64,000 nt of DNA from Salipiger abyssi (lineage in GTDB: Bacteria; Pseudomonadota; Alphaproteobacteria; Rhodobacterales; Rhodobacteraceae), in the NCBI RefSeq assembly GCF_001975705.1, contig NZ_CP015091.1, forward strand, positions 186,001 to 250,000. The letters run 5' to 3'. Below, piece after piece: positions 3,499 to 34,313 of this stretch (the stretch's first letter is position 1; each line of letters begins with the position of its first letter). A program made the position numbers and the translations under genes. The notes under the pieces were generated by a model, which was not told the DNA's origin, searched no databases, and saw nothing but the letters and a program-made list of their open reading frames with translations.

Positions 3499-3627
3499 CG
3501 GCAAACCTATCCTACAATTCCTTGCATTCTGATGGTCCAAAATGCCAATACTGCCGCAACAGAGTTTGCCCCGCGACCGGCCCGGCTGCAACCGCCGACC
3601 GGCGCCGCCCCTCAGGAGGTGCCTAAG

Positions 3628-5421
3628 ATGACCGCCAAGATCCGCCCGCAGGACCTGCGTTCCGCCAAATGGTTCAACAACCCCGACGATCCGGAGATGA
3701 CGGCGCTCTATCTGGAACGCTATCTCAATTACGGGCTGACGCGCGAAGAGCTTCAGGGCGGCAAGCCGATCATCGGCATTGCCCAGACCGGCAGCGATCT
3801 GTCGCCCTGCAACCGCCACCATATCGAGTTGGCCAAGCGGGTGCGCGACGGCATCATCGCCGCCGGCGGCATCCCGATGGAGATCCCGGTGCATCCGATT
3901 CAGGAGACCGGCAAGCGCCCCACGGCGAGCCTTGACCGCAACCTCGCCTATCTCGGGCTGGTCGAGGCGCTGCACGGCTATCCGATCGACGGGGTGGTGC
4001 TGACCATCGGCTGCGACAAGACCACGCCGGCACTGCTGATGGCGGCGGCGACGGTGAACATTCCCGCCATCGCCTTTTCCGTCGGGCCGATGCTGAACGG
4101 CTGGTTCAATGGCGAGCGCGCCGGATCGGGCAGCGTGATCTGGAAGGCGCGCGAACAGCACGCGGCGGGCGAAATCGACGATGACGGGTTCTTCGACCTC
4201 GTGGCCTCCTCGGCACCGTCGGTGGGCTATTGCAACACGATGGGCACCGCCTCGACGATGAACTCGCTGGCCGAGATCCTGGGGATGCAGCTGCCCGGCT
4301 CCGCCGCGATCCCGGCGCCCTATCGCGAGCGCGGGCAGATGGCGCGGGCCACCGGCGCGCGCATCGTCGAGATGGTGTGGGAGGATCTGCGCCCGCTCGA
4401 CATCCTCACACGTGCGGCCTTCGAGAACGCCATTGTCGGCTGTTCGGCGCTTGGCGGATCCACCAATGCGCCGATCCATATCAATGCGATTGCCGCCCAT
4501 GCGGGGGTGACGCTCGAGAATGACGACTGGCAGCGGCTGGGCCACAAGGTGCCGCTGCTGGCCAATATGCAGCCCGCCGGGATCTATCTGGGCGAGGATT
4601 TCCAGCGTGCGGGCGGCGTGCCCGCGATTCTGGGCGAGCTGATCGAGGCCGGTCTGCTGCCGCATCCGCAGGCGGGCACTGTCGCGGGCCAGCCGCTTTC
4701 GGCGGGGGCCATCCGCAGCCACGAGCCCGAGGTGGTGCGCCCGGTCGATGGCGCGCTGCTGGCGCATGCGGGGTTCATGAACCTCAAGGGCAATCTCTTT
4801 GACAGCGCGATCATGAAGACCTCGGTGATTTCCGAGGATTTCCGCGCCCGCTACCTGTCCAACCCCGACGACCCCGAGGCCTTCGAAGGCACGGTCTTCG
4901 TCTTCGACGGGCCGGAGCATTTCCACGCAACCATCGACGACCCGGCATTGGCGGTCGGGCCGGACGCGGTGCTGGTGATGCGCGGGGCGGGGCCGCTGGG
5001 CTATCCCGGCGCGGCGGAGGTGGTGAACATGCGCCCGCCCGCCTATCTGCTGAAACAGGGCGTGCAGGCGCTGCCTTGTATCGGCGACGGGCGGCAATCG
5101 GGCACCTCCGGGTCTGCTTCGATCCTCAATGCCTCGCCCGAGGCGGCGGCTGGCGGCAATCTGGCGCTTTTGCGCAATGGCGACCGCATCCGCGTGGATC
5201 TGCGCAAGGCGCGGGTCGATGTGAAGCTGACCGAGGCAGAGCTGGCCGAGCGTCGTGCGGCGCTGGAGGCGGAGGGCGGCTATGCCGTGCCGGAAAGCCA
5301 GACGCCGTGGCAGGCGATGTTCCGCGCCGGTGTGGCGCAGCTCTGCGACGGCATGGTGCTGAAGGGCGCGCCGGAGTTCCGCGATATCGCGCGCAAGCAT
5401 ATGCCGCGCAACAATCACTGA
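3628..5421 (+). CDS. IlvD/Edd-family sugar-acid dehydratase
   Basis: A 597-residue dehydratase of the IlvD/Edd family, which uses an Fe-S cluster and Mg to dehydrate dihydroxy or sugar acids to 2-keto-3-deoxy acids. Conserved cysteines occur at Cys61 ([11 protein letters not shown]), Cys129 ([10 protein letters not shown]) and Cys202 ([10 protein letters not shown]), the pattern expected for cluster binding. AGGAGG ten bases upstream fixes the ATG although the frame is open further back. A keto-deoxy-sugar kinase gene follows after 12 bases, so the likely role is conversion of an aldonic acid such as xylonate, arabinonate or gluconate to its 2-keto-3-deoxy form. The exact sugar is not determinable; biosynthetic IlvD is less likely in this context. 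Confidence 0.92.
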
Positions 5422-5433
5422 GGAGGCGACACA

Positions 5434-6342
5434 ATGCCAAGGCTGCTATCCGTGGGCGAGGCCCTTGTCGAACTGGCGCCCTCGGGCGAGCCGGGGCTGT
5501 TTCGCGCAGGCCATGCGGGCGACACGCTGAACACTGCCTGGTATGCCCGCGCCATGCTGCCGTCCGGCTGGCAGGTGGCCTATTACACCGGGGTCGGGGC
5601 GGACGAGCCTTCGGCGGGGCTGCGGGCGCTGCTGGAGGGGGCGGGGATCGAGGCCGATCGGCTCTTCACCCATCCCAAACGCACGCTGGGGCTTTATATG
5701 ATCGCCCTGAAGGATGGCGAGCGCAGCTTTACCTATTGGCGCGACAGTTCTGCCGCGCGCACATTGGCTGAGGATCCGGCGCGGCTGGCGGCGGCCTTGG
5801 AGGGCTGCGACGTGATCCACCTTTCGGGCATCACCGTCGCGATCCTGCCACAGGAGGATCGCGACCGGTTGCACGCGGCGCTTGCGGCGCTGCCCGATAC
5901 GGTGAAGGTGGTCTTCGACCCGAACCTGCGTCCGCGTCTCTGGGAAGACAGCGAGACCATGTGCCGCGAGGTGACGCGCTTTGCCGCGCTGGCGGGCATC
6001 GCATTGCCCAGTTTCGATGACGAGGCGGCGCATTTCGGCGATGCCGATCCGGAGGCGACGCTGGCCCGCTATACGGCGCTCGGCTGTGCCGAGGTGGTGG
6101 TGAAGAACGGCGCGGGGCCGGTGCATGTCGTGGCGGAGGGCGCGCGCTTCACCCGCACGCCCGAGGCGGTGGCACGCCCGATCGACACCACCGGTGCCGG
6201 GGACAGTTTCAACGGCGGCTATCTGGCGGCGCGGCTGACGGGGAGCGATGCGCAAGAGGCGGTAGCGCAGGCCCAGGCGCTGGCGCGGAAGGTCGTCGGC
6301 TGGCGCGGGGCGCTGATTCCGTTCGACCGGCTTGCCGGTTGA
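5434..6342 (+). CDS. PfkB-family kinase, probable 2-keto-3-deoxygluconate kinase
   Basis: A 302-residue ribokinase/PfkB-fold kinase. The C-terminal signature DTTGAGDSFNGGYL carries the catalytic Asp257 and the anion hole, and the N-terminus MPRLLSVGEALVELAP is typical of KdgK-like proteins. GAGGAGG precedes the ATG. The gene is the second in an operon with the sugar-acid dehydratase, and the pair gives a short pathway: sugar acid to 2-keto-3-deoxy acid to its phosphate, which an aldolase would then split. No aldolase gene is in the window. A terminator follows. Confidence 0.88.
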   Translation: MPRLLSVGEALVELAPSGEPGLFRAGHAGDTLNTAWYARAMLPSGWQVAYYTGVGADEPSAGLRALLEGAGIEADRLFTHPKRTLGLYMIALKDGERSFTYWRDSSAARTLAEDPARLAAALEGCDVIHLSGITVAILPQEDRDRLHAALAALPDTVKVVFDPNLRPRLWEDSETMCREVTRFAALAGIALPSFDDEAAHFGDADPEATLARYTALGCAEVVVKNGAGPVHVVAEGARFTRTPEAVARPIDTTGAGDSFNGGYLAARLTGSDAQEAVAQAQALARKVVGWRGALIPFDRLAG

Positions 6343-20864: not shown

Positions 20865-22349
20865 TCAGCCCGCCTTTGCACCCGGCTCGATCACCACGGA
20901 GGGATCAAGGGGTTTGACGGGGGGGAACTGAAGACCGCGCTGACCGGTCAGGCCGCGATTGTCCATGGCCGCGCGCTCGGGCGCGGGGCAGCCGACGAGT
21001 TGGCCGTTGCTGACCCAGGACAGGTCTTCGCCATAGAGCTCTCCGATCAGCCGCCGCTCCAGCGCGGCGCGGATCTCGGCGCTGGCGGGATCGGCAGAAA
21101 GATCGCGGGTCTCGTTCGGGTCGTTCGCGAGATCGAAGAGCTGCACCCGGTTGCCCGCCGGATACCAGATCAGCTTGTGCGTCGCGTCGGTGACCATGCG
21201 CATGGCGCCGGCGCCTTCCATCGCCTCGCAATAGAGATAATCGCGTTGCGCGGGCCCTGCGAGCGACTCGCCGCAGCAGCTTTCGGGGATCTCGATCCCC
21301 GCCATGTCGAGCAGGGTGGGCATGATGTCCTGCAACCCGGCGAGCCGGGTATCGACCGCCCCCGCCGCGAACCGGTCGCCATCCGGCCGGTCGAGCAGGA
21401 TCATCGGAATGCCGACCGAGCCTTCGAGCATGGCGCGCTTGGCATAGAGCCCGTGATCGCCCAGCATGTCGCCGTGATCGGCGATGAACCCGATCACGGT
21501 GTTTTCCAGCAGGTTCTCCTCGCGCAGCGTGCCGAGGATCAGGCGGATCTGGTGGTCGATATGGGTGCAGAGCGCGTAATAGGCACGCCGCGCCTCGGTC
21601 AGCCGTTCGGGCGTCAGCCGGTCCCAGTACGCGCGCATGTTGGCCAGCGCATAGGGCAGGTCCGCGTCGGCAGACCAGTCGCTTTCGACCGGCGGCAGCA
21701 CGTCGCGCATGCGGTAGCGGTCAAGATACTCCGCCAGAGGCGCCAGCGGCGGGTGCGGGTGGGTGTAGGAGACGTGCCAAAAGGCCGGGCGCGTGGGATC
21801 GCGACGCTTGATCGTCTTGCAGGCCTCGCGGGTGGTCCAGTTGGTGACGTGGTGGCGCTCATCCAGATGCCAGGGGCGCCAGGAATATTCGTTGTTGCTC
21901 ATGCCATGCATGAACTGCTCGCCCGCATGGCCCTGTTCGCCGAGATATTCATCGTAATCGTCGAACCCGTCGAGCCCCGAGCGGCCCTCTTCGGCGAGCT
22001 TCACATCGTCAAAGCCGATCCGGTCGCGGGGCGGGAAGACATGCAGCTTGCCGATGGCATTGGTCTGGTATCCGGCGGCGCGGAAACATCCCGCGAGCGT
22101 CGGCATGTCGGGCATGCGCAGATCGGGGCGGAAGCGGCGGTCGCCATGGGCGCGCGCATTGGTGCCGGTCATCAGCCCGCGCCGCGCCGGGCCGCAGATC
22201 GGGGTTTCGGAATAGGCGCGGGAAAACCGCGTGCCGCTGGCGCAGAGCCGGTTGAGTGTCGGCGTTTCGATGTCGCTGCGGCCTGCGGCCTCGATCAGAT
22301 GGCCGGGCCATTGGTCGACGCAGATCAGCAGGAAATTCGTGTCGTCCAT
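20865..22349 (-). CDS. Cys-type sulfatase, cytosolic
   Basis: A 494-residue sulfatase. CGPAR with Cys52 is the formylglycine motif, LLICVDQWPGH contains the first metal Asp, and FIADHGDMLGDHG is the second metal segment. No signal peptide is seen. It is related to the partial sulfatase at the left edge more closely than to the other two. AAAGGA precedes the start. It follows the RpiR gene by 18 bases on the same strand, so the two form an operon controlled from the region upstream of rpiR. Confidence 0.94.
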   Translation of the reverse strand: MDDTNFLLICVDQWPGHLIEAAGRSDIETPTLNRLCASGTRFSRAYSETPICGPARRGLMTGTNARAHGDRRFRPDLRMPDMPTLAGCFRAAGYQTNAIGKLHVFPPRDRIGFDDVKLAEEGRSGLDGFDDYDEYLGEQGHAGEQFMHGMSNNEYSWRPWHLDERHHVTNWTTREACKTIKRRDPTRPAFWHVSYTHPHPPLAPLAEYLDRYRMRDVLPPVESDWSADADLPYALANMRAYWDRLTPERLTEARRAYYALCTHIDHQIRLILGTLREENLLENTVIGFIADHGDMLGDHGLYAKRAMLEGSVGIPMILLDRPDGDRFAAGAVDTRLAGLQDIMPTLLDMAGIEIPESCCGESLAGPAQRDYLYCEAMEGAGAMRMVTDATHKLIWYPAGNRVQLFDLANDPNETRDLSADPASAEIRAALERRLIGELYGEDLSWVSNGQLVGCPAPERAAMDNRGLTGQRGLQFPPVKPLDPSVVIEPGAKAG

Positions 22350-22367
22350 CGGGGGGTCCTTTGTGGG

Positions 22368-23258
22368 TCAGTCGCCGATCGGATGCGGTTTGTCCGTCGG
22401 GTTGAGGGGCGCCAGCGCAGTGCGGATGCGGCGCAGCTTTTCGCGGGAGACATCCGGCGTTCTGGCCGCGGTGGCGGCGGCGAGCATGTCGATGACCGCC
22501 ATGAAGGCCACGCGCGAGGCGGTGGGTTTGAAGAGATCCGCCGCCTCGGGCGGGTCGAGGGTGATCGCGATATCGCAAAGCTCCGCCAGCGGCGTCGCCG
22601 GGCGGGTGACCGCGATGGTCTCGGCGCCGTATTGACGGGCGATCTGCACCGCGTCGGTAAGCTCGGCGGGCCGGCCGCTCTGCGAGAGCGCGACCAGCGC
22701 GTGGCCGGGCTCCAGCGTGGCGGCGAGCATGCGCGCCAGATAGCCGTCGGCATGGGCCTCGCTCGCCTTGCCGAGCCGGAAGAACCGGTTGGCGGCGTCA
22801 CGGGCGAGCACGGCGGAACCGCCGCCCACGCCGAGGAAAACGATCCGCTCCGAGCCCGCCAGCGCCTCCGCCGCCCGCTCCAGCGCGGCGGGGTCGAGTG
22901 TGCTGCGGGTCTGTTCCAGCGCGGCAGTCATGCCGTCGACGATCTGGCCGATCAGGTCGTCGGGCCGGGTGGGCACGGTGGCGGGATTGCCGAGATAGTG
23001 CATCGAGGCGGAGACGTTCATCGCCAGCCGGATGCGGAACTCCTTGAACCCGCTGCACCCGAGCGTCTGACAAAACCGGTTCACGGTGGCGACGGAAACA
23101 TCCGCACCGGCAGCGATTTCCCCGAGATTCTGGTGCACGGCGCGGTCGAGATTGTCGAGCACATAGGCCGCGACCCGGTTTTCCTGCCGCGACATCCCCT
23201 CCTGCCGCGCCCGCAGGCGCGAGATCAGGTCGATGGGGCTGGTGTCGGGATCTGCCAT
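22368..23258 (-). CDS. RpiR-family transcriptional regulator
   Basis: A 296-residue regulator. The N-terminal RpiR helix-turn-helix includes GEIAAGADVSVATVNRFCQ (about residues 46-64), and the C-terminal half is a SIS sugar-phosphate isomerase-like domain (FLGVGGGSAVLARDAANRF, ALSQSGRPAELTDAV). Such proteins sense phosphosugars. It is transcribed with the downstream sulfatase, and two sites resembling HexR/RpiR boxes lie upstream, so it is probably autoregulated. Confidence 0.92.
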   Translation of the reverse strand: MADPDTSPIDLISRLRARQEGMSRQENRVAAYVLDNLDRAVHQNLGEIAAGADVSVATVNRFCQTLGCSGFKEFRIRLAMNVSASMHYLGNPATVPTRPDDLIGQIVDGMTAALEQTRSTLDPAALERAAEALAGSERIVFLGVGGGSAVLARDAANRFFRLGKASEAHADGYLARMLAATLEPGHALVALSQSGRPAELTDAVQIARQYGAETIAVTRPATPLAELCDIAITLDPPEAADLFKPTASRVAFMAVIDMLAAATAARTPDVSREKLRRIRTALAPLNPTDKPHPIGD

Positions 23259-23406: not shown

Positions 23407-24207
23407 TCAGCGGGCCGCGCTGTCCATGACGGGGCTGGCCGCCGGGGCAGGGGTGCCGAGCGCGCTTTCGATGTTTGTCGCGGCGCTGCGGACCGCCTGC
23501 GCAAGACGCGCCTCGTCGGCCTGCGCCTTCGATTCCGGGAGCACGATGGAAATGGTCGCCAGGCAATTGCCAGCGTGGTCGCAGACCGGCGAGGCGATGC
23601 AGGCGACCGCGTATTCCGAGGCGCTCATCTGGATGGCGATCCGCTCGCGGAACTCCCGGCCCGCGAGCTCGGAGAGCTCGGCAGGGTCGGTCGCGGCCTG
23701 TTTGGTGGCCGAGGGGCGGGCGCATTCGGCAAAGATCGCGCGCCGTTCCGCATCGGGCAGATGGCCCAGCAGCAGACGGCCGGAGGCGGTCCAGTTCAGC
23801 GGCACGCGGGTGCCGACATCGGAGGCGACGGCGAAATGTCCGGGGCCGCGCGCCATGTGCACGACGGTCATCATGCCACCGTCGCGGGCGCAGATCTGCA
23901 CCGTCTCGCCGACCTCGGCGCAGAGCCGGTCCATCTCGCGGCGGGCCTCGGTGAAGAGATCGACACTGGCGCGGTAGGCCAGGCCATAACGCAGCAGGCG
24001 CGGCCCGAGCCAGATGGCGTTTTCGCCTGCGCGGCTGAGCATGTCGCGGGCCAGCAGCTCGTCGACGATCTTGTAGATGGTCGACGCGGGGGCGCCGGTG
24101 GCGCGGGCCAGCTCATAGGCGCTCATCGGGCGGTTGGTCTCGGTCAGTACGTCCAGCACCTGCAGGGACCGGCTGATCGCCCCGACTCGTTTGCCTCTTT
24201 CACTCAT
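23407..24207 (-). CDS. IclR-family transcriptional regulator
   Basis: A 266-residue IclR regulator. The N-terminal winged helix (MSAYELARATGAPASTIYKI, about residues 28-47) is followed by the IclR effector domain, with the conserved C-terminal segment ASPVCDHAGNCLATISIV. It is divergent from the peptide-type ABC operon at 24430, with several dyads in the 222-base gap, and is the likely regulator of that operon. Confidence 0.92.
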   Translation of the reverse strand: MSERGKRVGAISRSLQVLDVLTETNRPMSAYELARATGAPASTIYKIVDELLARDMLSRAGENAIWLGPRLLRYGLAYRASVDLFTEARREMDRLCAEVGETVQICARDGGMMTVVHMARGPGHFAVASDVGTRVPLNWTASGRLLLGHLPDAERRAIFAECARPSATKQAATDPAELSELAGREFRERIAIQMSASEYAVACIASPVCDHAGNCLATISIVLPESKAQADEARLAQAVRSAATNIESALGTPAPAASPVMDSAAR

Positions 24208-24429: not shown

Positions 24430-25959
24430 ATGATGCTCGATACATTCGGCAAGGCCGGTCTGCTGGCCGCCCTGCTTGCCGGTACGTCCCTCGCCCTGCC
24501 CGCCTATGCCGAGGGCACGCTCGATATCGCGATGATCGGCGAGCCCGACACGCTCGATCCGATGATGTCGACCAAGGGCGTGGTGTCCATCGCCACCCAG
24601 CATTTCATCGAAACGCTCTATACTTTCGATTCCGCGTGGAACATCGCACCGCTCCTGGCCGTGGACATGCCCGAGATCAGCGAAGACGGGCTGAGCTACA
24701 GGATCGCCATCCGTGAGGGCATCACCTTCCATGACGGCTCGACCATGGACGCGCAGGACGTGGTCGCCTCGCTGGATCGCTGGCTGGAGGTCGCGACGCG
24801 TGGCAAGCTGGTGGCCGAAAAGGTCGCTTCGGTCGAGGCGACCGGCGATTACGAGGTGACGATCACCATGTCCGAGCCCTATTCGCCGCTGCTGTCGCTG
24901 CTCGCCTTCTCCAATTCCGCCGCCGCGATCTATCCCGAAGAGATCATCGGCGAGTCCATCGACGAGCCGATCGGCACCGGCCCCTATATGGTCGCCGAAC
25001 ATGTGCCCGACCGGTATCTGCGCGTGGTGCGCTTCGACGATTACGTCTCGCGCGACGAGCCCTCCGACGGTGCCTCCGGCGCACGCCAGCAGATCCCCGA
25101 CGAGATCCGTTTCGTGCCGGTGCCCGATGCCAATACCCGCGTCGAGGGGCTGCTCTCCGGGCAGTTCGACTTTGCCGATAGCCTCCCGGCGGAGAGCTAT
25201 GCGCGGCTCGAAGGCTCCGATACCGCCGAGCCGATCCTGCAAAAGCCCTTTGGCTGGCCGATCTTCGCGATCAATCACAAGGCCGGACTGCTGACCGATC
25301 TGCCGATCCGTCAGGCGGTGCAGGCGGCGCTGCCCATCGACGACATGCTGTTCGCGGCCTTCGGCGACGACACGTTCTTCCAGGTCGACGGGCCGATGTA
25401 TCCCGAGGGCTGGGCCTGGCGCAACGAGGCCGGGACCGAGTCCTTCAACCAGAACGACCAGGCGAAAGCCCGCGCGCTGCTGGAAGAGGCGGGCTATGAC
25501 GGCACGCCGCTGCGCATCCTGACCTCGCGGCAATACGAATTCCACTACAAGATGGCCGAGGTCGCGCGCATGGCGCTGGAGGCCGCCGGATTCGCCGTGC
25601 AGATGGATGTGGTCGACTGGGCGACGCTGGGCCAGCGCCGCAACGATCCCGCACTTTGGGACATCTACATCACCCACTCGCCCTTCCTGCCGGAGCCGTC
25701 CCTGACCAGCCTTTACGACGCGACCTCGCGCCTCGGCTGGACCAATCCGGAGAAGGAAGAGATCATGAAAGCCTTCACCACCGAGACCGATCCGGCCAAG
25801 CGGCAGGAGATCTTTGCCCAGCTTCAGGAGCAGGTCTTCACCGATGTGGGCTTCATCAAGATCGGCGCGTTCAATGCCCTGACCGGCCAGCGCCAGGGCC
25901 TGACCGGGGTGACCGACACCCCCTGGCCGTTCTTCTGGAACTCGGAAGTCTCGGAATAA
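24430..25959 (+). CDS. Oligopeptide-type ABC transporter substrate-binding protein
   Basis: A 509-residue family-5 (DppA/OppA/GsiB) binding protein. The signal peptide begins MMLDTFGKAGLLAALLAG and is cut after AYA. The mature part opens with LDIAMIGEPDTLDPM, the family pattern in which the ligand's amino end is recognised, and includes DGLSYRIAIREGITFHDG. GGAGG lies five bases from the ATG; the next codon is also ATG. It delivers its ligand to the permeases encoded downstream. Family members also bind nickel chelates, glutathione or sugar oligomers, so a peptide is not certain. Confidence 0.93.
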   Translation: MMLDTFGKAGLLAALLAGTSLALPAYAEGTLDIAMIGEPDTLDPMMSTKGVVSIATQHFIETLYTFDSAWNIAPLLAVDMPEISEDGLSYRIAIREGITFHDGSTMDAQDVVASLDRWLEVATRGKLVAEKVASVEATGDYEVTITMSEPYSPLLSLLAFSNSAAAIYPEEIIGESIDEPIGTGPYMVAEHVPDRYLRVVRFDDYVSRDEPSDGASGARQQIPDEIRFVPVPDANTRVEGLLSGQFDFADSLPAESYARLEGSDTAEPILQKPFGWPIFAINHKAGLLTDLPIRQAVQAALPIDDMLFAAFGDDTFFQVDGPMYPEGWAWRNEAGTESFNQNDQAKARALLEEAGYDGTPLRILTSRQYEFHYKMAEVARMALEAAGFAVQMDVVDWATLGQRRNDPALWDIYITHSPFLPEPSLTSLYDATSRLGWTNPEKEEIMKAFTTETDPAKRQEIFAQLQEQVFTDVGFIKIGAFNALTGQRQGLTGVTDTPWPFFWNSEVSE

Positions 25960-25972
25960 TACAGGATCCCGT

Positions 25973-26000
25973 GGCGGGGCTGCCGGTCCGGCACCCCGCC
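25973..26000 (+). terminator. Intercistronic hairpin after the binding-protein gene
   Basis: GGCGGGG pairs with CCCCGCC and, after a one-base bulge, TGCC pairs with GGCA. It lies between the binding-protein stop and the first permease and has no T run. A role in raising binding-protein message over permease message is inferred. Confidence 0.45.
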
Positions 26001-26026
26001 CGATCCATTCGTGTCCCGGAGGCCGC

Positions 26027-26968
26027 ATGGCACGCTATCTGATCAAACGCATCCTCGGGATGTGTGTCGTCATCTTTCTGGTCCTGACCATTGCCTTCAT
26101 CATCGTGCGCCTGGCGCCGGGCGACCCCGCCGCGCTGATGCTGGGGCCCGACGCCACGGCGGAGGATGCGGCGGCGCTGCGCAGCCAGCTTGGCCTCGAC
26201 CGGCCGATCACGGCGCAGTACCTCTCCTTTGTCAGGGGCGCGCTGCAAGGCGATCTCGGCACCTCGATCTATTTCAAACAGCCGGTGGTCTCGGTGCTGG
26301 CGGGGCGGGCGGAGCCGACGATCTTCCTGTCGCTCTTCTCGCTGGTGATCGCGCTGGTGATCGCGACACCCATCGGCATCTATGCCGCCTACCGGCGTGG
26401 CTCGCTGCTCGATCAGGGCGCGATTAGCACGGCCATGCTTGCCGCCTCGATCCCCAGTTTCTGGACCGGGCTGATGTTCCAGCGCTATCTCGCCACCGAT
26501 CTGGGTTGGTTCCCGGCCTCGGGCTATGGCGCGCCGGACGCGAGTTTCGTCGAGCGGATGGGATATCTCATCCTGCCCGCCATCGTGCTCGGCATCGTCA
26601 ATTCGGCGCTGATCCTGCGGTTCACCCGCGCCTCGATGCTCGACATCCTGGGCGAGGATTACGTGCGGACCGCGCGCTCCAAGGGCATGACCGAGCGCCG
26701 GGTGGTGCTGCGTCACGCGCTCAAGAACGCGGCGATTCCGATCATCACCGTGATCGGCCTGACCTTCGCGCTGCTGGTCTCGGGCGCCGTGGTGACGGAA
26801 CGGGTCTTCAACATCCCCGGCATGGGCAATCTCGTGGTCAGCGCGGTGCTGCGCCGGGATTACCCGGTCATCCAGGGCGCGCTGATCGTGGTCGCCTCGC
26901 TCTATGTGCTCATCAACCTGCTGACAGACCTGCTGTACCTGCTGGTCGACAAGCGTGTGAAATACTGA
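26027..26968 (+). CDS. Oligopeptide-type ABC permease (DppB type)
   Basis: A 313-residue permease beginning MARYLIKRILGM, a typical DppB start, with six predicted spans and the C-terminal loop DYVRTARSKGMTERRVVLRH that couples to the ATPases. GGAGG precedes the ATG. It is the second gene of the operon and is followed by its partner after 15 bases. Confidence 0.95.
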   Translation: MARYLIKRILGMCVVIFLVLTIAFIIVRLAPGDPAALMLGPDATAEDAAALRSQLGLDRPITAQYLSFVRGALQGDLGTSIYFKQPVVSVLAGRAEPTIFLSLFSLVIALVIATPIGIYAAYRRGSLLDQGAISTAMLAASIPSFWTGLMFQRYLATDLGWFPASGYGAPDASFVERMGYLILPAIVLGIVNSALILRFTRASMLDILGEDYVRTARSKGMTERRVVLRHALKNAAIPIITVIGLTFALLVSGAVVTERVFNIPGMGNLVVSAVLRRDYPVIQGALIVVASLYVLINLLTDLLYLLVDKRVKY

Positions 26969-26983
26969 AGCGGAGAACATTCG

Positions 26984-27844
26984 ATGGCCGCCCCATCCGC
27001 CGCCAGCCCCGACGCCAAGTTCCTGGCGCTGCTCTTTTCCCGCCGCGCGGTTCTGCTCGCGCTGATCGTCTTTACCGCGATCCTGCTGCTCTGCCTCTTC
27101 GCGCCGCTGGTGGCGCCCGCCGATCCGATGAAGATGTCGGTGCGTGCAAGGCTCAGCCCGCCGGGCGGAGACTTCCTGCTCGGCGCCGATGCCTTTGGCC
27201 GCGACGTGCTGTCCCGGCTGCTCTATGCCGGGCGCGTGTCGCTGATGATCGGGCTGGGCGTCGCCGTGCTCGCCTCGGTCGCGGGGATTGCCTTCGGGTT
27301 GCTGGCCGGGTTCTTCCGACGGCTCGACGGGCCGATCTCGCGGCTGGTCGATGCGATGATGGCCTTCCCCGACATCCTGCTCGCTATTGCGCTGGTGTCG
27401 ATCCTCGGCGGATCGGTGGTCAATGTGATCATCGCGCTTGCCATCGTCTACACGCCGCGCATCTCGCGCATCGTGCGCGCCTCGACGCTGGTGATCCGCG
27501 AGCTGCCCTATGTGGAGGCGGCGCGGGCGCTCGGCTCCTCCACGCGCACGATCATGTTCACCCATGTGCTGCGCAACATCCTCTCGCCCATCGTGGTGCA
27601 GGCCACCTTCATCTTCGCTTACGCCATGCTGGCCGAGGCGGGCCTTTCGTTCCTCGGGGTCGGCATCGACCCCAAGACCCCGTCCTGGGGCACGATGATC
27701 AACGAAGGGCGGCAATATCTCGACCAGGCGGCGTTTCTCATCGTCTTTCCCGGGCTGGTGATCTCGGTCTCCGTCCTGGCTCTGCAACTTATCGGCGACG
27801 GTTTCCGCGATGCGCTGGACCCGCGCCTGGCAAAGGATCTCTGA
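26984..27844 (+). CDS. Oligopeptide-type ABC permease (DppC type)
   Basis: A 286-residue permease with the DppC N-terminal region (HPLAP-like PLVAPADPMKMS, then LLGADAFGRDVLSRLLYAGR) and the coupling loop PYVEAARALGSSTRTIMFTH. It forms the membrane channel with the preceding DppB-type protein. The next gene starts two bases after its stop. Confidence 0.95.
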   Translation: MAAPSAASPDAKFLALLFSRRAVLLALIVFTAILLLCLFAPLVAPADPMKMSVRARLSPPGGDFLLGADAFGRDVLSRLLYAGRVSLMIGLGVAVLASVAGIAFGLLAGFFRRLDGPISRLVDAMMAFPDILLAIALVSILGGSVVNVIIALAIVYTPRISRIVRASTLVIRELPYVEAARALGSSTRTIMFTHVLRNILSPIVVQATFIFAYAMLAEAGLSFLGVGIDPKTPSWGTMINEGRQYLDQAAFLIVFPGLVISVSVLALQLIGDGFRDALDPRLAKDL

Positions 27845-27845
27845 C

Positions 27846-28964
27846 ATGGCGTTCAAACTCGTGAACTTCCGGCCCGTTGGCTTCGACACGGCCCCCAGCG
27901 AAATCCATGTGGACGATGCGGGCCGCGTCGCCGCCGGGGCCATCGACGGCGCCGAGGTCATCGACGGCAAGGGCGCGTTTCTCAGCCCCGGCTGGTGCGA
28001 CCTGCATGTGCATGTCTGGCATGGCGGCACCGATATTTCCGTGCGCCCCGAAGAGGCGGGCCGCGCCACCGGCGTCACCGCCATGGCCGATGCCGGCTCG
28101 GCGGGCGAGGCGGCGTTTCACGGGCTGCGGGAATATGTGATCGAGCCGGGTCAGGAGACGATCAAGGCCTTCCTCAATATCGGCTCCATCGGGCTCGTGG
28201 CCTGCAACCGCGTGTCCGAGCTGCTCGACCCGCGCGTCTCGGTCGATGTGGACCGCACCCTTGCCGTCGCCGAGGCCAATCGCGACGTGATCTGCGGCAT
28301 CAAGGTGCGCGCCAGCGGCGTGATCGCCGGCGGCTGGGGGCTGACGCCCGCCAAGATCGCCAAGCGGGTCGCCGAAATCCTCGACCTGCCGCTGATGGTG
28401 CATGTGGGCGAACCCGCCCCGCTCATTGATGAGGTCTTCGATATCCTGACCCCGGGCGACATCGTCACCCATTGCTTCAACGGCAAGCGCGCGGGCTCCA
28501 TCGGCGACACGCCGCAGCTCTTCGCGCAGGCCAAGCGCCTGGCGGAGGAGGGCGTGCGCATGGATATCGGCCACGGGCAGGCCTCGTTCAGCTTCGAAAC
28601 CGCGCGGCGGGCGCTGGCGGACGGGCTGCGCCCGTTCTCGATCTCGACCGACCTTCACCTGCGTAACATCAAGGGGCCGGTGCATGACATGTCGACCACC
28701 CTGGCCAAGCTTCTGGCAGTGGGCCTGCCCTTCGACGAGGTCATCGCCGCCGTGACCGAGCGCCCGCGCGGGATGCTGGGCCTCTCGGGCCGCGACGGGC
28801 TGACCCCGGGCATGAAGGCCGATTTCACGCTCTTCGATCTGGAACCCTATGGCAAGACGGCCACCGACAGCCTCGGTGCCGATCTCGAAATCGCCGAGAT
28901 GTTCGAGCCGCGCATGACGGTGATCGGCGCCTCGGTGCAATCCGCGAAACGGAGGGCTGCATGA
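27846..28964 (+). CDS. cog3964 amidohydrolase, probable N- or O-deacylase
   Basis: A 372-residue binuclear metal hydrolase of the amidohydrolase superfamily. Metal ligands are visible: His54-x-His56 (GWCDLHVHVWHGG), a bridging Lys153 (GIKVRASG), His186 (MVHVGEP), His209 (VTHCFNG) and Asp269 (SISTDLH). The pattern matches cog3964 proteins, once mislabelled dihydroorotases. Published work on this group (for example Atu3266) showed removal of acyl groups from small acids such as acetyl-(R)-mandelate. It lies between the permease and ATPase genes and overlaps the next start by four bases, so it should process the imported compound in the cytoplasm. The acyl substrate is unknown. Confidence 0.88.
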   Translation: MAFKLVNFRPVGFDTAPSEIHVDDAGRVAAGAIDGAEVIDGKGAFLSPGWCDLHVHVWHGGTDISVRPEEAGRATGVTAMADAGSAGEAAFHGLREYVIEPGQETIKAFLNIGSIGLVACNRVSELLDPRVSVDVDRTLAVAEANRDVICGIKVRASGVIAGGWGLTPAKIAKRVAEILDLPLMVHVGEPAPLIDEVFDILTPGDIVTHCFNGKRAGSIGDTPQLFAQAKRLAEEGVRMDIGHGQASFSFETARRALADGLRPFSISTDLHLRNIKGPVHDMSTTLAKLLAVGLPFDEVIAAVTERPRGMLGLSGRDGLTPGMKADFTLFDLEPYGKTATDSLGADLEIAEMFEPRMTVIGASVQSAKRRAA

Positions 28965-29962
28965 CGGAAAGCCCAATCCTCGACGTGCGCAACCTGCGGG
29001 TCGGCTTCCGGTCGCGCCGCAGCCAGGTGACGGCGCTGCGCGACGTAAGCTTCACCCTCTATCCGGGCAAGACGCTGGCGCTGGTGGGCGAGAGCGGCTC
29101 GGGCAAATCGGTGTCCTCGCTGGCCATCATGGGGCTGCTGCCGCGCAATGGCGCGGTCACCGGCGGCTCGATCCGCTATCGCCGCCGCGACGGCGGCGAG
29201 ATGGATCTGGCGCAGGCGGACGAGGCGACCCTGCGCGGCATGCGCGGCGCCGAGATCGCGATGATCTTTCAGGAGCCGATGTCTTCGCTCAACCCGCTCT
29301 TCAGCATCGGCGACCAGATCGGCGAGATGCTGCTTTTGCACAGCGATCTCGACGCGGCGGCCCGGCGCAAGCGGGTGATCGAGATGCTGGAGCTGGTCGA
29401 GATCCCGGGCGCCGCGCGCCGCGTCGACCAGTTTCCGCACGAGATGTCGGGCGGCATGCGCCAGCGGGTGATGATCGCGCTGGCCATGGTCTGCAACCCG
29501 GCGCTGCTGATTGCCGACGAGCCGACCACGGCGCTCGATGTCACCATTCAGGCGCAGATCCTCGACCTGATGCGCCGCTTGCAGCGCGATCTGGGCATGT
29601 CGATCCTGTTCATCACCCATGATATGGGCGTGGTGGCCGAAATGGCCGACGACGTGGCGGTGATGTATGCCGGCGCCATTGTCGAACAGGCCGGCGCCGA
29701 GGCGCTTTTCGAGACGCCGAGCCATCCCTATACGCAGGGGCTGTTGCATTCCATCCCGGTGCCGGGCCGGCCCGAGGGCGAGCGGCTGGTGCCGATCCCC
29801 GGCGCGGTGCCGGCGCTGCACGCCATGCCGCCGGGCTGCGCCTTTGCGCCGCGCTGTGGTCTGGCGCAGGACGTGTGCAAAAAGCCGGTGGCGCTGCGCG
29901 ATATCGGCGGCGGGCACAATGTCGCCTGCGCGCTTGCCGGACGGGAGCAGGCCCATGTCTGA
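28961..29962 (+). CDS. Oligopeptide-type ABC ATPase (DppD type)
   Basis: A 333-residue ATPase with Walker A GESGSGKS, signature MSGGMRQRVMIALAM, Walker B LLIADEPTTALD and the oligopeptide-ATPase C-terminal tail with PPGCAFAPRC. The start overlaps the amidohydrolase stop (ATGA). It works with the next ATPase as a heterodimer. Confidence 0.95.
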   Translation: MTESPILDVRNLRVGFRSRRSQVTALRDVSFTLYPGKTLALVGESGSGKSVSSLAIMGLLPRNGAVTGGSIRYRRRDGGEMDLAQADEATLRGMRGAEIAMIFQEPMSSLNPLFSIGDQIGEMLLLHSDLDAAARRKRVIEMLELVEIPGAARRVDQFPHEMSGGMRQRVMIALAMVCNPALLIADEPTTALDVTIQAQILDLMRRLQRDLGMSILFITHDMGVVAEMADDVAVMYAGAIVEQAGAEALFETPSHPYTQGLLHSIPVPGRPEGERLVPIPGAVPALHAMPPGCAFAPRCGLAQDVCKKPVALRDIGGGHNVACALAGREQAHV

Positions 29963-30920
29963 GCCCTTGCTGAAAATCCGCAATCTCACCAAGACCTTCA
30001 ACGCGCCGAGCGGTGCCGTTCAGGCGGTCAGCGACGTCAGTTTCGACATTCCGCGCGGCTCGATCACCGGGCTCGTGGGCGAAAGCGGCTCGGGCAAGAC
30101 GACGCTCGGGCGCGCGCTGCTGCGGCTGATCGAGCCGACCTCCGGCGAGACGGTGTTTGACGGGCAGGATCTCAACACGCTTTCGGTCGCCGAGATGCGC
30201 GAGGCGCGCAAGCGGATGCAGATCATCTTTCAGGATCCGGTCTCCTCGCTCAACCCGCGCCTGCGCGTGGGCGACATCATCGCCGAGGGGCTGAAGGCGC
30301 ATAAGATCGGCACCGCGCGCAGCCGCCGCGACACGGTGGCATCGCTGCTCGAAGAGGTCGGGCTCAGCGCCGATCACATGGGCCGGTTTCCGCATGAATT
30401 CTCGGGCGGGCAGCGGCAGCGTATCGGCATCGCGCGGGCGCTGGCGCTGGAGCCGGAATTCATCGTGGCCGACGAAAGCGTCTCGGCGCTCGACGTGTCG
30501 ATCCAGGCGCAGGTGCTCAACCTGCTGCTCGACCTGCGGGAGCGGCGCAACCTGACCATGCTGTTCATCGCGCATGATCTTTCCGTGGTGGAATATCTCT
30601 GCGACCAGATCGCGGTGATGTATCTCGGCAAGATCGCCGAGATCGGCCCGTCACGCCCGCTCTACGAGGCGCCTGCGCATCCCTATACCGAGGCGCTGCT
30701 CTCGGCGATCCCGCTGCCCGATCCCAAGCGGAACCGCAGCCGGACGATCCTCAGGGGCGACATTCCCAGCCCGCTCGCGCCGCCCTCGGGCTGCGTGTTC
30801 CGCACCCGCTGCCCGCATGCGGAGGATGCCTGTGCGCAGGGCGATACCGCCGCCATCACCGTGGGTGCCGCCCACCAAAGTTACTGCAAAAGAACTGAAG
30901 AGCTATATGTCCGTGCTTGA
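29955..30920 (+). CDS. Oligopeptide-type ABC ATPase (DppF type)
   Basis: A 321-residue ATPase with Walker A GESGSGKTT, signature FSGGQRQRIGIARA and Walker B FIVADESVSALD, in which Ser replaces the usual Pro after DE. The C-terminal SGCVFRTRCPHAEDAC is the family's cysteine-containing tail. The start overlaps the DppD-type gene by eight bases and the end overlaps the RidA-like gene by 14, so all three are translationally coupled. Confidence 0.94.
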   Translation: MSEPLLKIRNLTKTFNAPSGAVQAVSDVSFDIPRGSITGLVGESGSGKTTLGRALLRLIEPTSGETVFDGQDLNTLSVAEMREARKRMQIIFQDPVSSLNPRLRVGDIIAEGLKAHKIGTARSRRDTVASLLEEVGLSADHMGRFPHEFSGGQRQRIGIARALALEPEFIVADESVSALDVSIQAQVLNLLLDLRERRNLTMLFIAHDLSVVEYLCDQIAVMYLGKIAEIGPSRPLYEAPAHPYTEALLSAIPLPDPKRNRSRTILRGDIPSPLAPPSGCVFRTRCPHAEDACAQGDTAAITVGAAHQSYCKRTEELYVRA

Positions 30921-31404
30921 ACGCAAATCCGAAACCGCCATTGCCGACCGTCTTGCCGAGCTGGGGGTCGAGCTGCCCGCCGCCGCGCCCGATCCCATCG
31001 GGGCGTTCTGCAATGTCCGGCAGACCGGCAATCTGGTCTATGTCTCCGGTCAGGGCCCTGTCCTTGCCGACGGCACGCTGCTGCGCGGCAAGGTCGGGCG
31101 CGAGATCGGCGTTGACGAGGCCCGCGACCGCGCCCGGCTGGTGGCGGTCAACATCCTCGGCGCGCTGCGCGATCATCTCGGCGGGCTCGAACGGGTGACC
31201 GGCGTCATCAAGCTTCTGGGGCTGGTCAATGCCAGCCCGGATTTCGAGCGGCACCCGGCGGTGATCGACGGCGCCTCGACCCTGCTTGCCGATGTGTTCG
31301 GCCAGACCGGGGTGCATGCCCGCTCGGCCTTTGGCGTGGCCTCGCTGCCCAACGACATCAGTGTCGAGATCGAGGCGATTTTCGAGATCGGAGACGCGGC
31401 ATGA
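30907..31404 (+). CDS. RidA/YjgF-family protein
   Basis: A 165-residue Rid-family protein. RidA hydrolyses reactive enamine/imine intermediates made by PLP-dependent dehydratases to the keto acid and ammonia. The core GNLVYVSGQGPVLADG (about residues 41-56) and the active-site Arg139 in HARSAFGVASLPND are present, with Glu154/Glu156 in VEIEAI, so it keeps the catalytic arginine of the active subgroups. The N-terminal 30 residues are longer than in RidA itself. It overlaps the ATPase gene upstream and the PLP enzyme gene downstream by four bases, a close pairing with a likely enamine producer. Confidence 0.9.
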   Translation: MSVLERKSETAIADRLAELGVELPAAAPDPIGAFCNVRQTGNLVYVSGQGPVLADGTLLRGKVGREIGVDEARDRARLVAVNILGALRDHLGGLERVTGVIKLLGLVNASPDFERHPAVIDGASTLLADVFGQTGVHARSAFGVASLPNDISVEIEAIFEIGDAA

Positions 31405-32597
31405 CCGGCATGTGGGACTGGCACGATGCGCAGGGGTTGAGCCGGGTCATCAACGTCTCCGGCACGATGACCGGGCTCGGCGCTTCGGTCACCGCCGCGC
31501 CGGTGCAGCAGGCGGTGGCGGCGGCGATGGGGCGCTTCGTCAAGATGCACGAGCTTCAGGCCAGCGCCAGCGAGGTGATCGCGCGGCTTACCGGGGCAGA
31601 GGCCGGCTTCATGACCGCCTCCGCCTCGGCGGGGGTGAGCCTGTCGCTTGCCGGCTGCATGACGGGGCTCAATCCGGGCGCCGCCGAGGCGCTGCCCCGC
31701 GATCCGGGGCAGACACCGAATGTGGTGGTGCAGATGGGCCATCTCTGCGGATACGGCGCGCCGATTTCGCAGGCGGTCGAGCTGACGGGGGGCGCGGTGC
31801 GCTCTATCGGGCAGTCGACGCTCTGCACCGACTACGCGCTCGAGGCAGCGCTCGACGAGACCGTCGCCGCGGCGCTTTATGTCGTGTCGCACCATGTGGT
31901 GCATTACGGCCAGATTCCGCTGCGCCGCTTTGCCGAGATCTGCCATGCGCGCGGTGTGCCGGTCGTGGTGGATGCGGCCTCGGAATACGATCTGCGCGGC
32001 TTCCTCGCCGCCGGAGCCGATATCGTCATCTATTCCGGCCACAAGTTCCTCGGCGGTCCGACATCGGGCATCGTCGCGGGGCGGCGCGATCTGGTGCGGG
32101 CGGGCTATCTCCAGAATATCGGCATCGGCCGGGGCATGAAGATCGGCAAGGAGAGCATTGCCGGGGCGATCGCCGCGCTGGAGGCCTGGGAAACCCGCGA
32201 TCACGACGGCATCCGCGCCCGCGAACGCGCGGCGCTCGACCTCTGGACCGGGGCGCTGGCCGGGATCGACGGCGTTGCCGCCCGGATCGTTCCCGACCCG
32301 ACCGGCAACCCGCTCGACCGGCTGGAGGTGCATGTGGATGCGGCACGGCTGGGCGCCGGGGCAGGATCGGTCGCCGGGCTGCTCGCGTCGCGCGATCCGG
32401 CGATCATCGTGCGCGATCACGAGGTCGAGCTTGGCTATTTCCAGCTCGATCCCTGCAACCTTCTACCGGGTCAGGCCGAGATCGTGGCCGAGGCGCTGGT
32501 CACGGCACTGAGCGACAAAGCCGGACTGGCACAGGCGGCGCCGGTCGATGCGCGCAATGGCGGCGTCGCGGGCTACCTGAACTGGGGCGCGGTCTGA
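31401..32597 (+). CDS. SelA-like PLP-dependent enzyme (probable ammonia-lyase/dehydratase)
   Basis: A 398-residue fold-type I PLP protein of the selenocysteine synthase-like group. The cofactor lysine is Lys215 in YSGHKFLGGPTSGIV, and Asp191 in VVVDAASEYD would contact the pyridine nitrogen. It is shorter than true SelA, and no selenocysteine genes are nearby. Relatives include DgaE, the D-glucosaminate-6-phosphate ammonia-lyase, and the partners of cog3964 amidohydrolases. With RidA directly upstream, removal of water or ammonia from an amino acid or amino sugar acid through an enamine is the best guess. The substrate is not known. Confidence 0.85.
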   Translation: MTGMWDWHDAQGLSRVINVSGTMTGLGASVTAAPVQQAVAAAMGRFVKMHELQASASEVIARLTGAEAGFMTASASAGVSLSLAGCMTGLNPGAAEALPRDPGQTPNVVVQMGHLCGYGAPISQAVELTGGAVRSIGQSTLCTDYALEAALDETVAAALYVVSHHVVHYGQIPLRRFAEICHARGVPVVVDAASEYDLRGFLAAGADIVIYSGHKFLGGPTSGIVAGRRDLVRAGYLQNIGIGRGMKIGKESIAGAIAALEAWETRDHDGIRARERAALDLWTGALAGIDGVAARIVPDPTGNPLDRLEVHVDAARLGAGAGSVAGLLASRDPAIIVRDHEVELGYFQLDPCNLLPGQAEIVAEALVTALSDKAGLAQAAPVDARNGGVAGYLNWGAV

Positions 32598-33157: not shown

Positions 33158-34168
33158 CTACGTCAGTCGGTTCTGGATATCCACGAGCTTGGCCTCGAAC
33201 ACCTCGGCGGGCGTTCGGTAGCCCAGGCATTTGCGGGGCGTCGCGTTGAGGCGCTGGCAAATCGACCTCAAATATCGATTTGTCAGCGCCGTCGGTTCGG
33301 TCGAGCGGGGCAGGAACTTGCGAAGACGGTTGTTGGTGTTCTCGACCGTACCTTTCTGCCAGGGCGCCCGCGGGTCGCAGAACCAGCTGTCCGCGCCGAT
33401 CCCATCCTTGAGCCGTTGCCATGCCGAGAACTCGGACCCGCGGTCGAATGTGATGGATTGGCGTGCGTCGGCGGGCAGGGCGGAGAGCCCATGGATGAGG
33501 GCTTCCATGATCGGCTTCGATCGCCGGTCCTCGTTGCGTTGCACGACGGTGTAGCGGCTGACGCGCTCCACCAGGGAGGTCACGTTGATCTTGCCGTGCT
33601 CCTTGCGGAACATCACCAGGTCACATTCCCAGTGCCCGAACTCAACGCGCTCGGCGACGCGATCCGGTCTGTTTGAAAGGTTCTGCGCATCCGAGATGTG
33701 GCTGCGCTGGTACCGGCGGTATCCACGAGGTCTGCGGCGTCTGCGATGCTCGGGCAGGTGCCGGTAGAACTGCTCGGCGCGACCTTCCTTCGAGTAGGCG
33801 TAGCGATAGATCGTTTCGTGGCTCACGCGGATACCATGCTGCTCGAGACGCATCCGGCCGGCGATCTGCTCCGGTGACCAGCCAGCCTTGAGACCATGCT
33901 CGACGGCAGCTTTGAGCTGAGGGTGCTGAACCATCTTGCGGTGAAGGGCGCGGCGCTTCTCGCTCATGGTCTGAGCGTTCAGCGCGTAGTATCCTGCGAG
34001 CTCTGGCAGTCCGCCGCCGTCGAAGTGGTTGCGCTTCAGATCACGATAGATCGTCGAGGGGGCGCGGCTCAGGCGATCCGCGATCTCGGGTATCGGCATC
34101 TTGGCTTCACGCCACTTGGCAATCTTGATCCGTTCCTCGAAACTCAGCTGAAGGTAGCAACGACCCAT
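33158..34168 (-). CDS. IS30-family transposase
   Basis: A 336-residue transposase. The N-terminal helix-turn-helix is in PIPEIADRLSRAPSTIYRDL, and the DDE catalytic core shows HWECDLVMF (Asp), ITFDRGSEF (Asp) and GTVENTNNRLRKFLPR (Glu), the last being the IS30 hallmark. GGAGG lies six bases before this ATG; an upstream in-frame ATG would include the inverted-repeat side and is rejected. The gene appears intact, so the element may still move. Confidence 0.95.
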   Translation of the reverse strand: MGRCYLQLSFEERIKIAKWREAKMPIPEIADRLSRAPSTIYRDLKRNHFDGGGLPELAGYYALNAQTMSEKRRALHRKMVQHPQLKAAVEHGLKAGWSPEQIAGRMRLEQHGIRVSHETIYRYAYSKEGRAEQFYRHLPEHRRRRRPRGYRRYQRSHISDAQNLSNRPDRVAERVEFGHWECDLVMFRKEHGKINVTSLVERVSRYTVVQRNEDRRSKPIMEALIHGLSALPADARQSITFDRGSEFSAWQRLKDGIGADSWFCDPRAPWQKGTVENTNNRLRKFLPRSTEPTALTNRYLRSICQRLNATPRKCLGYRTPAEVFEAKLVDIQNRLT

Positions 34169-34188
34169 CCCACGTCCTCCATGCAAAC

Positions 34189-34206
34189 TTCTGTTTTGAT
34201 ACAGAA
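34189..34206. repeat. Dyad inside the IS30 right end
   Basis: TTCTGT-N6-ACAGAA, a perfect 6-base dyad between the transposase start and the right terminal repeat, overlapping the inner end of that repeat. It may be the transposase promoter or an autoregulatory site. Confidence 0.4.
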
Positions 34207-34313
34207 TTTGCACTTCGTTTGTGAATCCACCGCTACAGACGCACGATGCCTATAAGGTATGTTATGTAAAATACATTCTCGGGCGCATACCCTGTTTCCC
34301 AAACCGAGAGCCG

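Follow-up and report, generated by a model that had tools for sequence, protein, structure and literature searches.

Salipiger abyssi carries a conserved catabolic operon, which we describe here from a window of 64,000 nucleotides (the whole stretch of DNA that was analysed, positions 186,001 to 250,000 of contig NZ_CP015091.1, assembly GCF_001975705.1). The operon combines an ATP-binding cassette (ABC) importer of the Opp type with a cog3964-type amidohydrolase, a RidA-family protein and a pyridoxal 5'-phosphate (PLP) enzyme related to DgaE and SelA. Open reading frame analysis of the window gives eight plus-strand genes in one tight operon from 24433 to 32597, the first of which has an alternative ATG at 24430. 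These genes and two others to which the text refers are, in window positions:

24433..25959, plus strand: family-5 (Opp/Dpp-type) substrate-binding protein (NikA/GsiB-type models 112-116 bits, far under cut-off)
26027..26968, plus strand: ABC permease 1 (Opp2B 311 bits, cut-off 350)
26984..27844, plus strand: ABC permease 2 (Opp4C 262 bits, cut-off 350)
27846..28964, plus strand: cog3964-type amidohydrolase, predicted deacylase (PRK09237 364 bits; 2ogj 423 bits)
28961..29962, plus strand: ABC ATPase 1, OppD-like (OppD-type model 350 bits, cut-off 575)
29955..30920, plus strand: ABC ATPase 2, OppF-like (OppF-type model 365 bits, cut-off 540)
30907..31404, plus strand: RidA-family protein, operon-linked form (PF14588 and PF01042, both above cut-off)
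31401..32597, plus strand: DgaE/SelA-like PLP enzyme, predicted ammonia-lyase (TIGR01437 296.8 bits; 7lc0 242 bits)
23407..24207, minus strand: IclR-family regulator, divergent from the operon (IclR_C 101 bits, HTH_IclR 35.9 bits)
5434..6342, plus strand: KdgK-like sugar kinase in a separate operon (NF052444 235.8 bits, cut-off 400)

Read from 5' to 3', and with start codons of our choice, the junctions of the operon are gaps of 67, 15 and 1 bp followed by overlaps of 4, 8, 14 and 4 bp. This agrees with the touching or overlapping gene ends given in the preliminary description of this DNA, which had counted seven genes instead of eight; the families it had named for the importer, the amidohydrolase, the RidA protein and the PLP enzyme were confirmed by profile searches. 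The importer subunits fit Opp/Dpp/Nik-type models and reach no curated cut-off among the rows cited. The best solved relatives of the binding protein, 8vdx (137 bits) and AgaA (6hlx, 113 bits), give no pointer to its ligand.

Scanning contigs with the PLP gene gave at least 499 confirmed relatives among the 594 matching stretches listed. The best 80 (loci L039 to L118) were kept, a selection that favours close relatives and includes some short contigs, and 60 of them, having at least 9 kb on each side of the PLP gene, form the full-flank set. Neighbours were called with fixed distance and identity limits, for the IclR gene at least 48% identity and at most 7.5 kb from the PLP gene. Linked to the PLP gene in the best 80 loci were an Opp-type importer (58), the amidohydrolase (57), RidA (72) and IclR (56), RidA and the PLP enzyme being the most constant pair, and importer, amidohydrolase, RidA and PLP enzyme occurred together in 46 of the 60 full-flank loci, 43 of which also carried IclR. 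Gene order is variable: the ATPase genes either precede RidA or follow the PLP gene, IclR lies on either side, some loci have a double-length ATPase, and in L049 the block is inverted. The flanks are unrelated, with the commonest Pfam family present in 4 of the 80 flanking proteins scanned (115 listed), and among these scanned proteins no conserved accessory enzyme was found next to the operon. Candidates for such a role, namely a GH1 gene (four Martelella loci), a FAD-binding protein (three loci) and a ureidoglycine-aminohydrolase (Rhizobium), were each limited to small groups. A neighbourhood confined to this strain had been named beforehand as a refutation of the suggested pathway; conservation was looked for outside the strain and found in Rhodobacterales and Hyphomicrobiales, so that this objection falls. 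The operon is thus a real, conserved catabolic unit, common to many soil and marine alphaproteobacteria, and not a peculiarity of one strain. Some 8 kb downstream of the full operon in L043 (17900-20700) lies a second, diverged RidA-PLP pair, 46% and 47% identical to the proteins of the window.

Co-occurrence was also counted in sampled genomes, without regard to kinship. Among 390 genomes of the order, with both genes called at E ≤ 1e-60, the PLP enzyme was found in 10 and the amidohydrolase in 9, all of them among those 10, and in 8 of the 9 (window included) both genes lie in one operon. The ninth, G721, encodes importer, amidohydrolase and RidA on one contig lacking the PLP gene, which is found on another contig together with IclR, a further RidA and an importer of the amino-acid type; the tenth PLP genome, G614, holds only a 50% relative of the enzyme. 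The class sample (387 genomes) contained 7 genomes with the amidohydrolase at E ≤ 1e-60: the 6 in which it is at least 55% identical all have a PLP enzyme of at least 55% identity, in G194 on a separate contig and in G366 about 29 kb away, and the seventh (39% identity) has no PLP enzyme at E ≤ 1e-20. Four of the Salipiger genomes sampled lack both genes, and a PLP relative at E ≤ 1e-40 is found in 187 plasmid records (179 under 60% identity, 136 from Rhizobium), so the operon is patchy in distribution and partly plasmid-borne, relatives of the PLP gene being widespread on rhizobial plasmids.

The presence of the amidohydrolase largely follows the type of importer. In the full-flank loci, Opp importer and amidohydrolase were both present in 47, both absent in 8, and found alone in 3 and 2 loci, respectively (Fisher p 2.6e-6, 60 loci, kinship ignored). 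An amino-acid-type ABC importer, read by Pfam in L089 and by similarity to L089 elsewhere, stands beside the PLP gene in 11 of the 80 loci, and in 9 of these the amidohydrolase is absent; two Bosea loci have both importer types and the amidohydrolase. Three of the loci with this importer (L077, L088, L091) lack RidA as well and form one clade with L134 and L135, and in L084, with a tripartite ATP-independent periplasmic (TRAP) importer, the amidohydrolase is again absent. On a quick tree of the PLP relatives, presence and absence of the amidohydrolase switch at least 8 times. The amidohydrolase therefore travels with the Opp importer, which refines the preliminary description, and most simply, the PLP enzyme would use an amino acid in free form, with the amidohydrolase required where an acylated form is imported.

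The PLP enzyme scores best with TIGR01437 (296.8 bits, under the subfamily cut-off of 385.3), reaches 280.7 bits with the DgaE equivalog (cut-off 600) and exceeds the cut-off of the SelA model PF03841 (47.7 bits compared to 22.8); its nearest solved relative is DgaE. According to PMC9529869, DgaE acts on a hexose acid and removes its C3 hydroxyl, His-163 protonating C3. In the same paper, DgaE lacking His-163 is reported to let go of a compound with absorbance at 293 nm, interpreted as the enamine, and RidA is named as the type of enzyme by which released species of this sort are removed; a docked model there places the phosphate near Arg-301, Arg-332 and Arg-346 and the carboxylate near Arg-226. 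We aligned 100 related rows (at least three contigs present twice), 83 of which lie beside a RidA gene. The catalytic lysine and both histidines of DgaE are kept in 83/83 RidA-linked rows (K215, H164 and H165 in the window; the lysine is numbered 217 in PMC9529869 and 213 in the 7lc0 chain), so that the SelA-like enzyme does possess the lysine attributed to it before. The position of Arg-301 is kept in 83/83 of these rows and that of Arg-332 in 82/83 (R307 and R338 here), whereas Arg-346 is replaced by Cys (C352 here) and Thr-347 by Asn in all 83. Compared to the DgaE system described in PMC9529869, the window enzyme thus shares the PLP family, the catalytic Lys, the His-162/163 pair and the Arg-301 and Arg-332 positions; it differs by Cys for Arg-346 and Asn for Thr-347, and its operon has a linked RidA and amidohydrolase instead of import of a phosphorylated substrate by a phosphotransferase system (PTS). 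Arginine occupies position 346 in four proteins of the DgaE type with a PTS or aldolase context (7lc0, Bartonella, Lacticaseibacillus, Enterococcus) and as well in a Streptomyces relative with no PTS or aldolase genes in view. The loss of Arg-346, import by an ABC carrier and the lack of a linked kinase at most loci together suggest that the substrate is probably unphosphorylated, with a polar tail. The DgaE-like deamination of the preliminary description remains plausible in its chemistry, the kept lysine and histidine pair being compatible with a β-elimination that would give an enamine or imine, and is refined in its substrate. A distant relative (44%) in L139 (6754-12354) lies between malonyl-CoA decarboxylase and pyruvate-dehydrogenase-E1/transketolase-like genes, and therefore the wider PLP family has other roles; on a Streptomyces plasmid (L155, 4883-11477) a DgaE-type gene stands among NDP-hexose 2,3-dehydratase and clavaminate-synthase-like genes, perhaps a biosynthetic cluster.

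The RidA protein belongs to its Pfam families (PF01042 49.0 bits, cut-off 27.3; PF14588 60.9 bits, cut-off 35) and, with 38.5 bits for TIGR00004 against a cut-off of 106.25, falls outside the classic RidA subfamily as judged by these models. R139 and E154, which we take to be the active-site residues and the first of which had been announced as the active-site arginine, occur in 84/84 aligned operon-linked relatives. The RidA-family proteins 3d01 and PA0814 (9bk9) also carry this Arg and Glu of the presumed active site, whereas G50 and N108, invariant in the 84 operon-linked rows, are L and A in these two. The genome encodes 9 RidA-family genes. We compared two sets of genomes, 15 selected for having the PLP enzyme (all 10 of the order sample, plus 5 others of the class sample that also have the amidohydrolase) and 20 of the order sample without it: the operon form of RidA (at least 149 bits and 53% identity) was present in 13 of the 15 and in none of the 20, G194 and G614 being the two without it, and lesser relatives (at most 128 bits) were found in all 35. 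These results bear on the possibility that the PLP enzyme is an aminotransferase, an aldolase or a selenium transferase giving no enamine, next to which RidA would be incidental. Database records do call the protein 'aminotransferase class V-fold' and the SelA Pfam model is matched, but the DgaE-type model scores 297 bits compared to 45 for the SelA equivalog, the proton-donor histidine pair of DgaE is kept, and the close RidA form occurs only in genomes with the PLP enzyme among the 35 tested, which together make this explanation highly improbable. A SelA/DgaE-like gene also adjoins a differently named Rid-family gene on an archaeal (Haloprofundus) plasmid (L154, 5989-7620), possibly an independent pairing.

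From the observed gene set, conservation and residue pattern we infer the reactions, their order and the substrate as follows, and we consider it somewhat more probable than all else that the operon is a scavenging pathway for acylated D-2-amino-3-hydroxy acids. The Opp-type importer would take up the acylated compound, and the cog3964 amidohydrolase would strip the acyl group in the cytoplasm. The DgaE-like enzyme would then dehydrate the freed amino acid at C2-C3, yielding an enamine or imine, whose hydrolysis to a 2-keto-3-deoxy acid and ammonia would be accelerated by the operon RidA. The keto acid may enter common metabolism, in the case of 2-keto-3-deoxygluconate (KDG) via a KdgK and a KDPG aldolase whose genes lie outside the operon. 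Where relatives have an importer of the amino-acid ABC or TRAP type, the amino acid would be imported in its free form and the amidohydrolase would be dispensable. As to the substrate, an unphosphorylated 2-acylamino-2-deoxy-aldonate such as N-acetyl-D-glucosaminate is our tentative candidate.

The amidohydrolase scores 364.3 bits with PRK09237, just under its curated cut-off of 371, and 263 bits with the EF_0837 model (cut-off 432). Its best solved match is 2OGJ (423 bits, 54% identical), a cog3964 enzyme deposited as 'dihydroorotase' that is itself 97.3% identical to the amidohydrolase within the operon of Agrobacterium (L104, L111). Residues H54, H56, K153, H186, H209 and D269 are shared with 2OGJ and with all relatives covering them; we take them to be the metal-ligand set of the family (HxH, Lys, His, His, Asp), so that the complete set of ligands attributed to this enzyme earlier is present in the alignment. 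We believe 2OGJ to be Atu3266. In a 2013 study, this enzyme and an Ochrobactrum relative reportedly hydrolysed acetyl-(R)-mandelate well and N-acetyl-D-serine poorly; to our knowledge, the 2OGJ enzyme was tested as an esterase or deacylase without a known physiological substrate and was not connected with this operon, and a search of the open-licence literature for Atu3266 and Oant2987 gave no match. Given the operon context, N-acetyl-D-serine resembles a shortened version of some longer N-acyl 2-amino-3-hydroxy acid.

A different bond might be cut by this enzyme: it could open or cut a small peptide, a lactam, an ester or an opine-like conjugate, and the amino acid set free would then lose some other leaving group to the PLP enzyme. 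In its favour, the importer belongs to the peptide/opine type and counts AgaA among its distant relatives of solved structure, the 2OGJ family has good esterase activity, and four Martelella loci of one clade (L081, L083, L094, L102) contain a GH1 β-glucosidase-type gene between binding protein and permease (for instance L083, 4129-5457), a hint that glycosides can be imported. The invariance of the DgaE lysine and histidine pair in the 83 RidA-linked rows speaks against it, as do the cog3964/DgaE pairs of other bacteria, which adjoin KDGP aldolase or PTS genes, and we regard this alternative as rather unlikely. Such pairs are direct neighbours on a Bartonella plasmid (with KDGP aldolase) and in Enterococcus (with PTS, MupG and sugar kinase genes). 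Both represent a type, presumably that of EF0837/EF0838, with the same two enzyme families adjacent, about 34% identity in both proteins, and no RidA. On an Enterococcus faecalis plasmid (L153, 7107-7863), no gene is listed after the DgaE-family gene and the stretch is split between two reading frames, perhaps as the remains of an aldolase gene.

The proposed scavenging pathway resembles the ong system (PMC9537276, PMC12017989), in which OngB deacetylates GlcNAc1A (the C1-oxidised chitin monomer), OngC deaminates the product to KDG and KdgK phosphorylates KDG. PMC9537276 adds that OngC also deaminates D-serine and D-threonine, and that the RidA protein OngD is required in vivo for a reason called unknown by its authors. 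Both systems have, here as a prediction, deacylation by an amidohydrolase without prior phosphorylation, a PLP deaminase and a RidA protein (30907-31404 here, not compared with OngD). They differ in that OngB is mononuclear and resembles D-aminoacylases and OngC is a PLP enzyme of fold-type III, compared to a cog3964 amidohydrolase and a DgaE/SelA-type enzyme here, and in that ong has a sodium symporter and a linked KdgK, compared to an Opp-type ABC importer and an unlinked KdgK. No D-aminoacylase model is among the families listed for the window amidohydrolase, the best being cog3964 models. The DgaE/SelA models are presumably of fold-type I. Because amidohydrolase group, PLP family and importer are other ones and no kinase is linked, the window operon, judged on its predicted proteins, is not a member of ong, though it would work alike. 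LPMO_10 and GH20 had no match in the genome of the window, so oxidised chitin, if it is the source, must come from others. In the open-licence literature, we found no description of this gene set and no paper linking D-glucosaminate with a deacetylase and 2-keto-3-deoxygluconate, or with Alphaproteobacteria, and glucosaminate is not mentioned in the passages of PMC9007349 that were searched.

The preliminary description had let the product enter a keto-deoxy kinase route at 5434. The kinase itself was confirmed as KdgK-like (235.8 bits) and is the genome's sole good match (two further ones reach 54 and 34 bits), but its presence does not track the operon. It adjoins an IlvD/Edd-type dehydratase gene (within 2839-5421) 18 kb from the operon, and together these genes (2839-6342) form another sugar-acid operon. 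KDPG aldolase is encoded once in the genome. Because KdgK and KDPG aldolase are about as common without the operon as with it, its link to KDG is only a hint; as a test for a KDG product, the two genes did not discriminate. The narrower variant of the same chemistry, which overlaps with the scavenging pathway and competes with the aldonate substrate only, takes a small N-acyl-D-amino acid (N-acyl-D-serine or -threonine) as substrate, the resulting pyruvate or 2-oxobutyrate entering metabolism directly. It would account for the absence of a consistently linked kinase, aldolase or dehydrogenase (the commonest flanking Pfam family reaching 4/80 proteins) and for the amino-acid-type importers that stand in for the Opp importer at some loci, and it agrees with the action of OngC on D-serine and D-threonine reported in PMC9537276. 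Conversely, DgaE, the nearest characterised PLP relative, uses a hexose acid (PMC9529869), and a KdgK-like gene does lie beside the PLP gene in 3/80 loci on separate branches (L057 and L058, also by profile, and L069, by BLAST at 45% only). The 2OGJ enzyme is also reportedly very weak on N-acetyl-D-serine, and on these grounds such a small substrate appears unlikely.

In favour of a scavenging pathway for acylated D-2-amino-3-hydroxy acids are the reshuffled but conserved clustering, the co-occurrence of amidohydrolase and PLP enzyme even across contigs (G721, G194), the pairing of Opp importer and amidohydrolase, the RidA form tied to the PLP enzyme, the retention of the DgaE catalytic residues with loss of Arg-346, the cog3964/DgaE neighbours elsewhere and the same deacetylase, PLP deaminase and RidA logic in ong (PMC9537276). 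Several observations weigh against it. Three Rhizobium loci keep Opp importer, RidA and PLP enzyme without a linked amidohydrolase, for which the proposed pathway gives no reason, although in G366, of the same branch, the amidohydrolase is found 29 kb off with its own IclR gene. Five further genomes of the class sample have a PLP enzyme of at least 55% identity without a close amidohydrolase (one of them, G168, has a 36% relative next door), and no RidA was found in the stretches read, which for two have 1.5 kb flanks only. RidA is absent near the PLP gene in 8/80 loci, in L049 only through the distance limit (it is present 7 kb off), so that the earlier claim of a dedicated RidA pointing to an enamine-forming step is supported by the restriction of this form to genomes with the PLP enzyme among the 35 tested, but not by every locus. 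Cysteine at position 346 is found in 10/15 rows with neither RidA nor amidohydrolase nearby, hence this change is not exclusive to RidA-linked genes, and Arg-226, docked near the DgaE substrate carboxylate, is not conserved in the 100-row alignment. Most loci have no linked kinase or aldolase, KdgK occurs in 13/14 genomes with the operon compared to 17/20 without, and KDPG aldolase in 34/34 tested genomes. Finally, with the proton-donor histidine of DgaE retained, it is not evident why RidA should be needed; for this reason RidA probably acts on released imine or on a fraction of enamine.

Next to the operon, past the IclR gene, an arylsulfatase-like gene and an RpiR/HexR-like regulator (20865-23258) have close kin beside the operon in 1/80 loci only, that of another S. 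abyssi strain (L039), which shares 96.7% identical DNA with the window from 21378 up to the final base of the PLP gene (32597); the nearest PLP protein among the database matches listed, 98% identical, is likewise from S. abyssi. Downstream of the PLP gene lies a transposase gene (33158-34213, minus strand) with HTH_38 and rve domains and candidate inverted repeats, presumably IS30-like. A shared IclR operator was sought in 50 intergenic stretches and rejected, the best dyad occurring in 3 compared to a shuffled maximum of 2.

The enzyme families are known, but in the open-licence literature we found no joint description of their combination, the change of residue and the RidA linked to the operon. 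The operon has a clear reaction logic, and its exact food can now be tested. A structurally solved amidohydrolase family, not known to have a physiological role, gains a genomic context and a short list of candidate substrates, and a clade of PLP enzymes is named that is predicted to have changed from phosphorylated to free substrates. The operon moreover offers a natural case of a RidA protein tied to one reaction, making the role of such a RidA, left open for OngD in PMC9537276, directly testable. It is conceivable, though doubtful at present, that Alphaproteobacteria have built from cog3964 and DgaE-type enzymes a second phosphorylation-free route for N-acetyl-aldonates (e.g. GlcNAc1A), with a RidA specialised for its enamine or imine. 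If true, the 2OGJ-type enzymes would have their physiological role in this route, and many carriers of the operon would cross-feed on oxidised products from other microbes.

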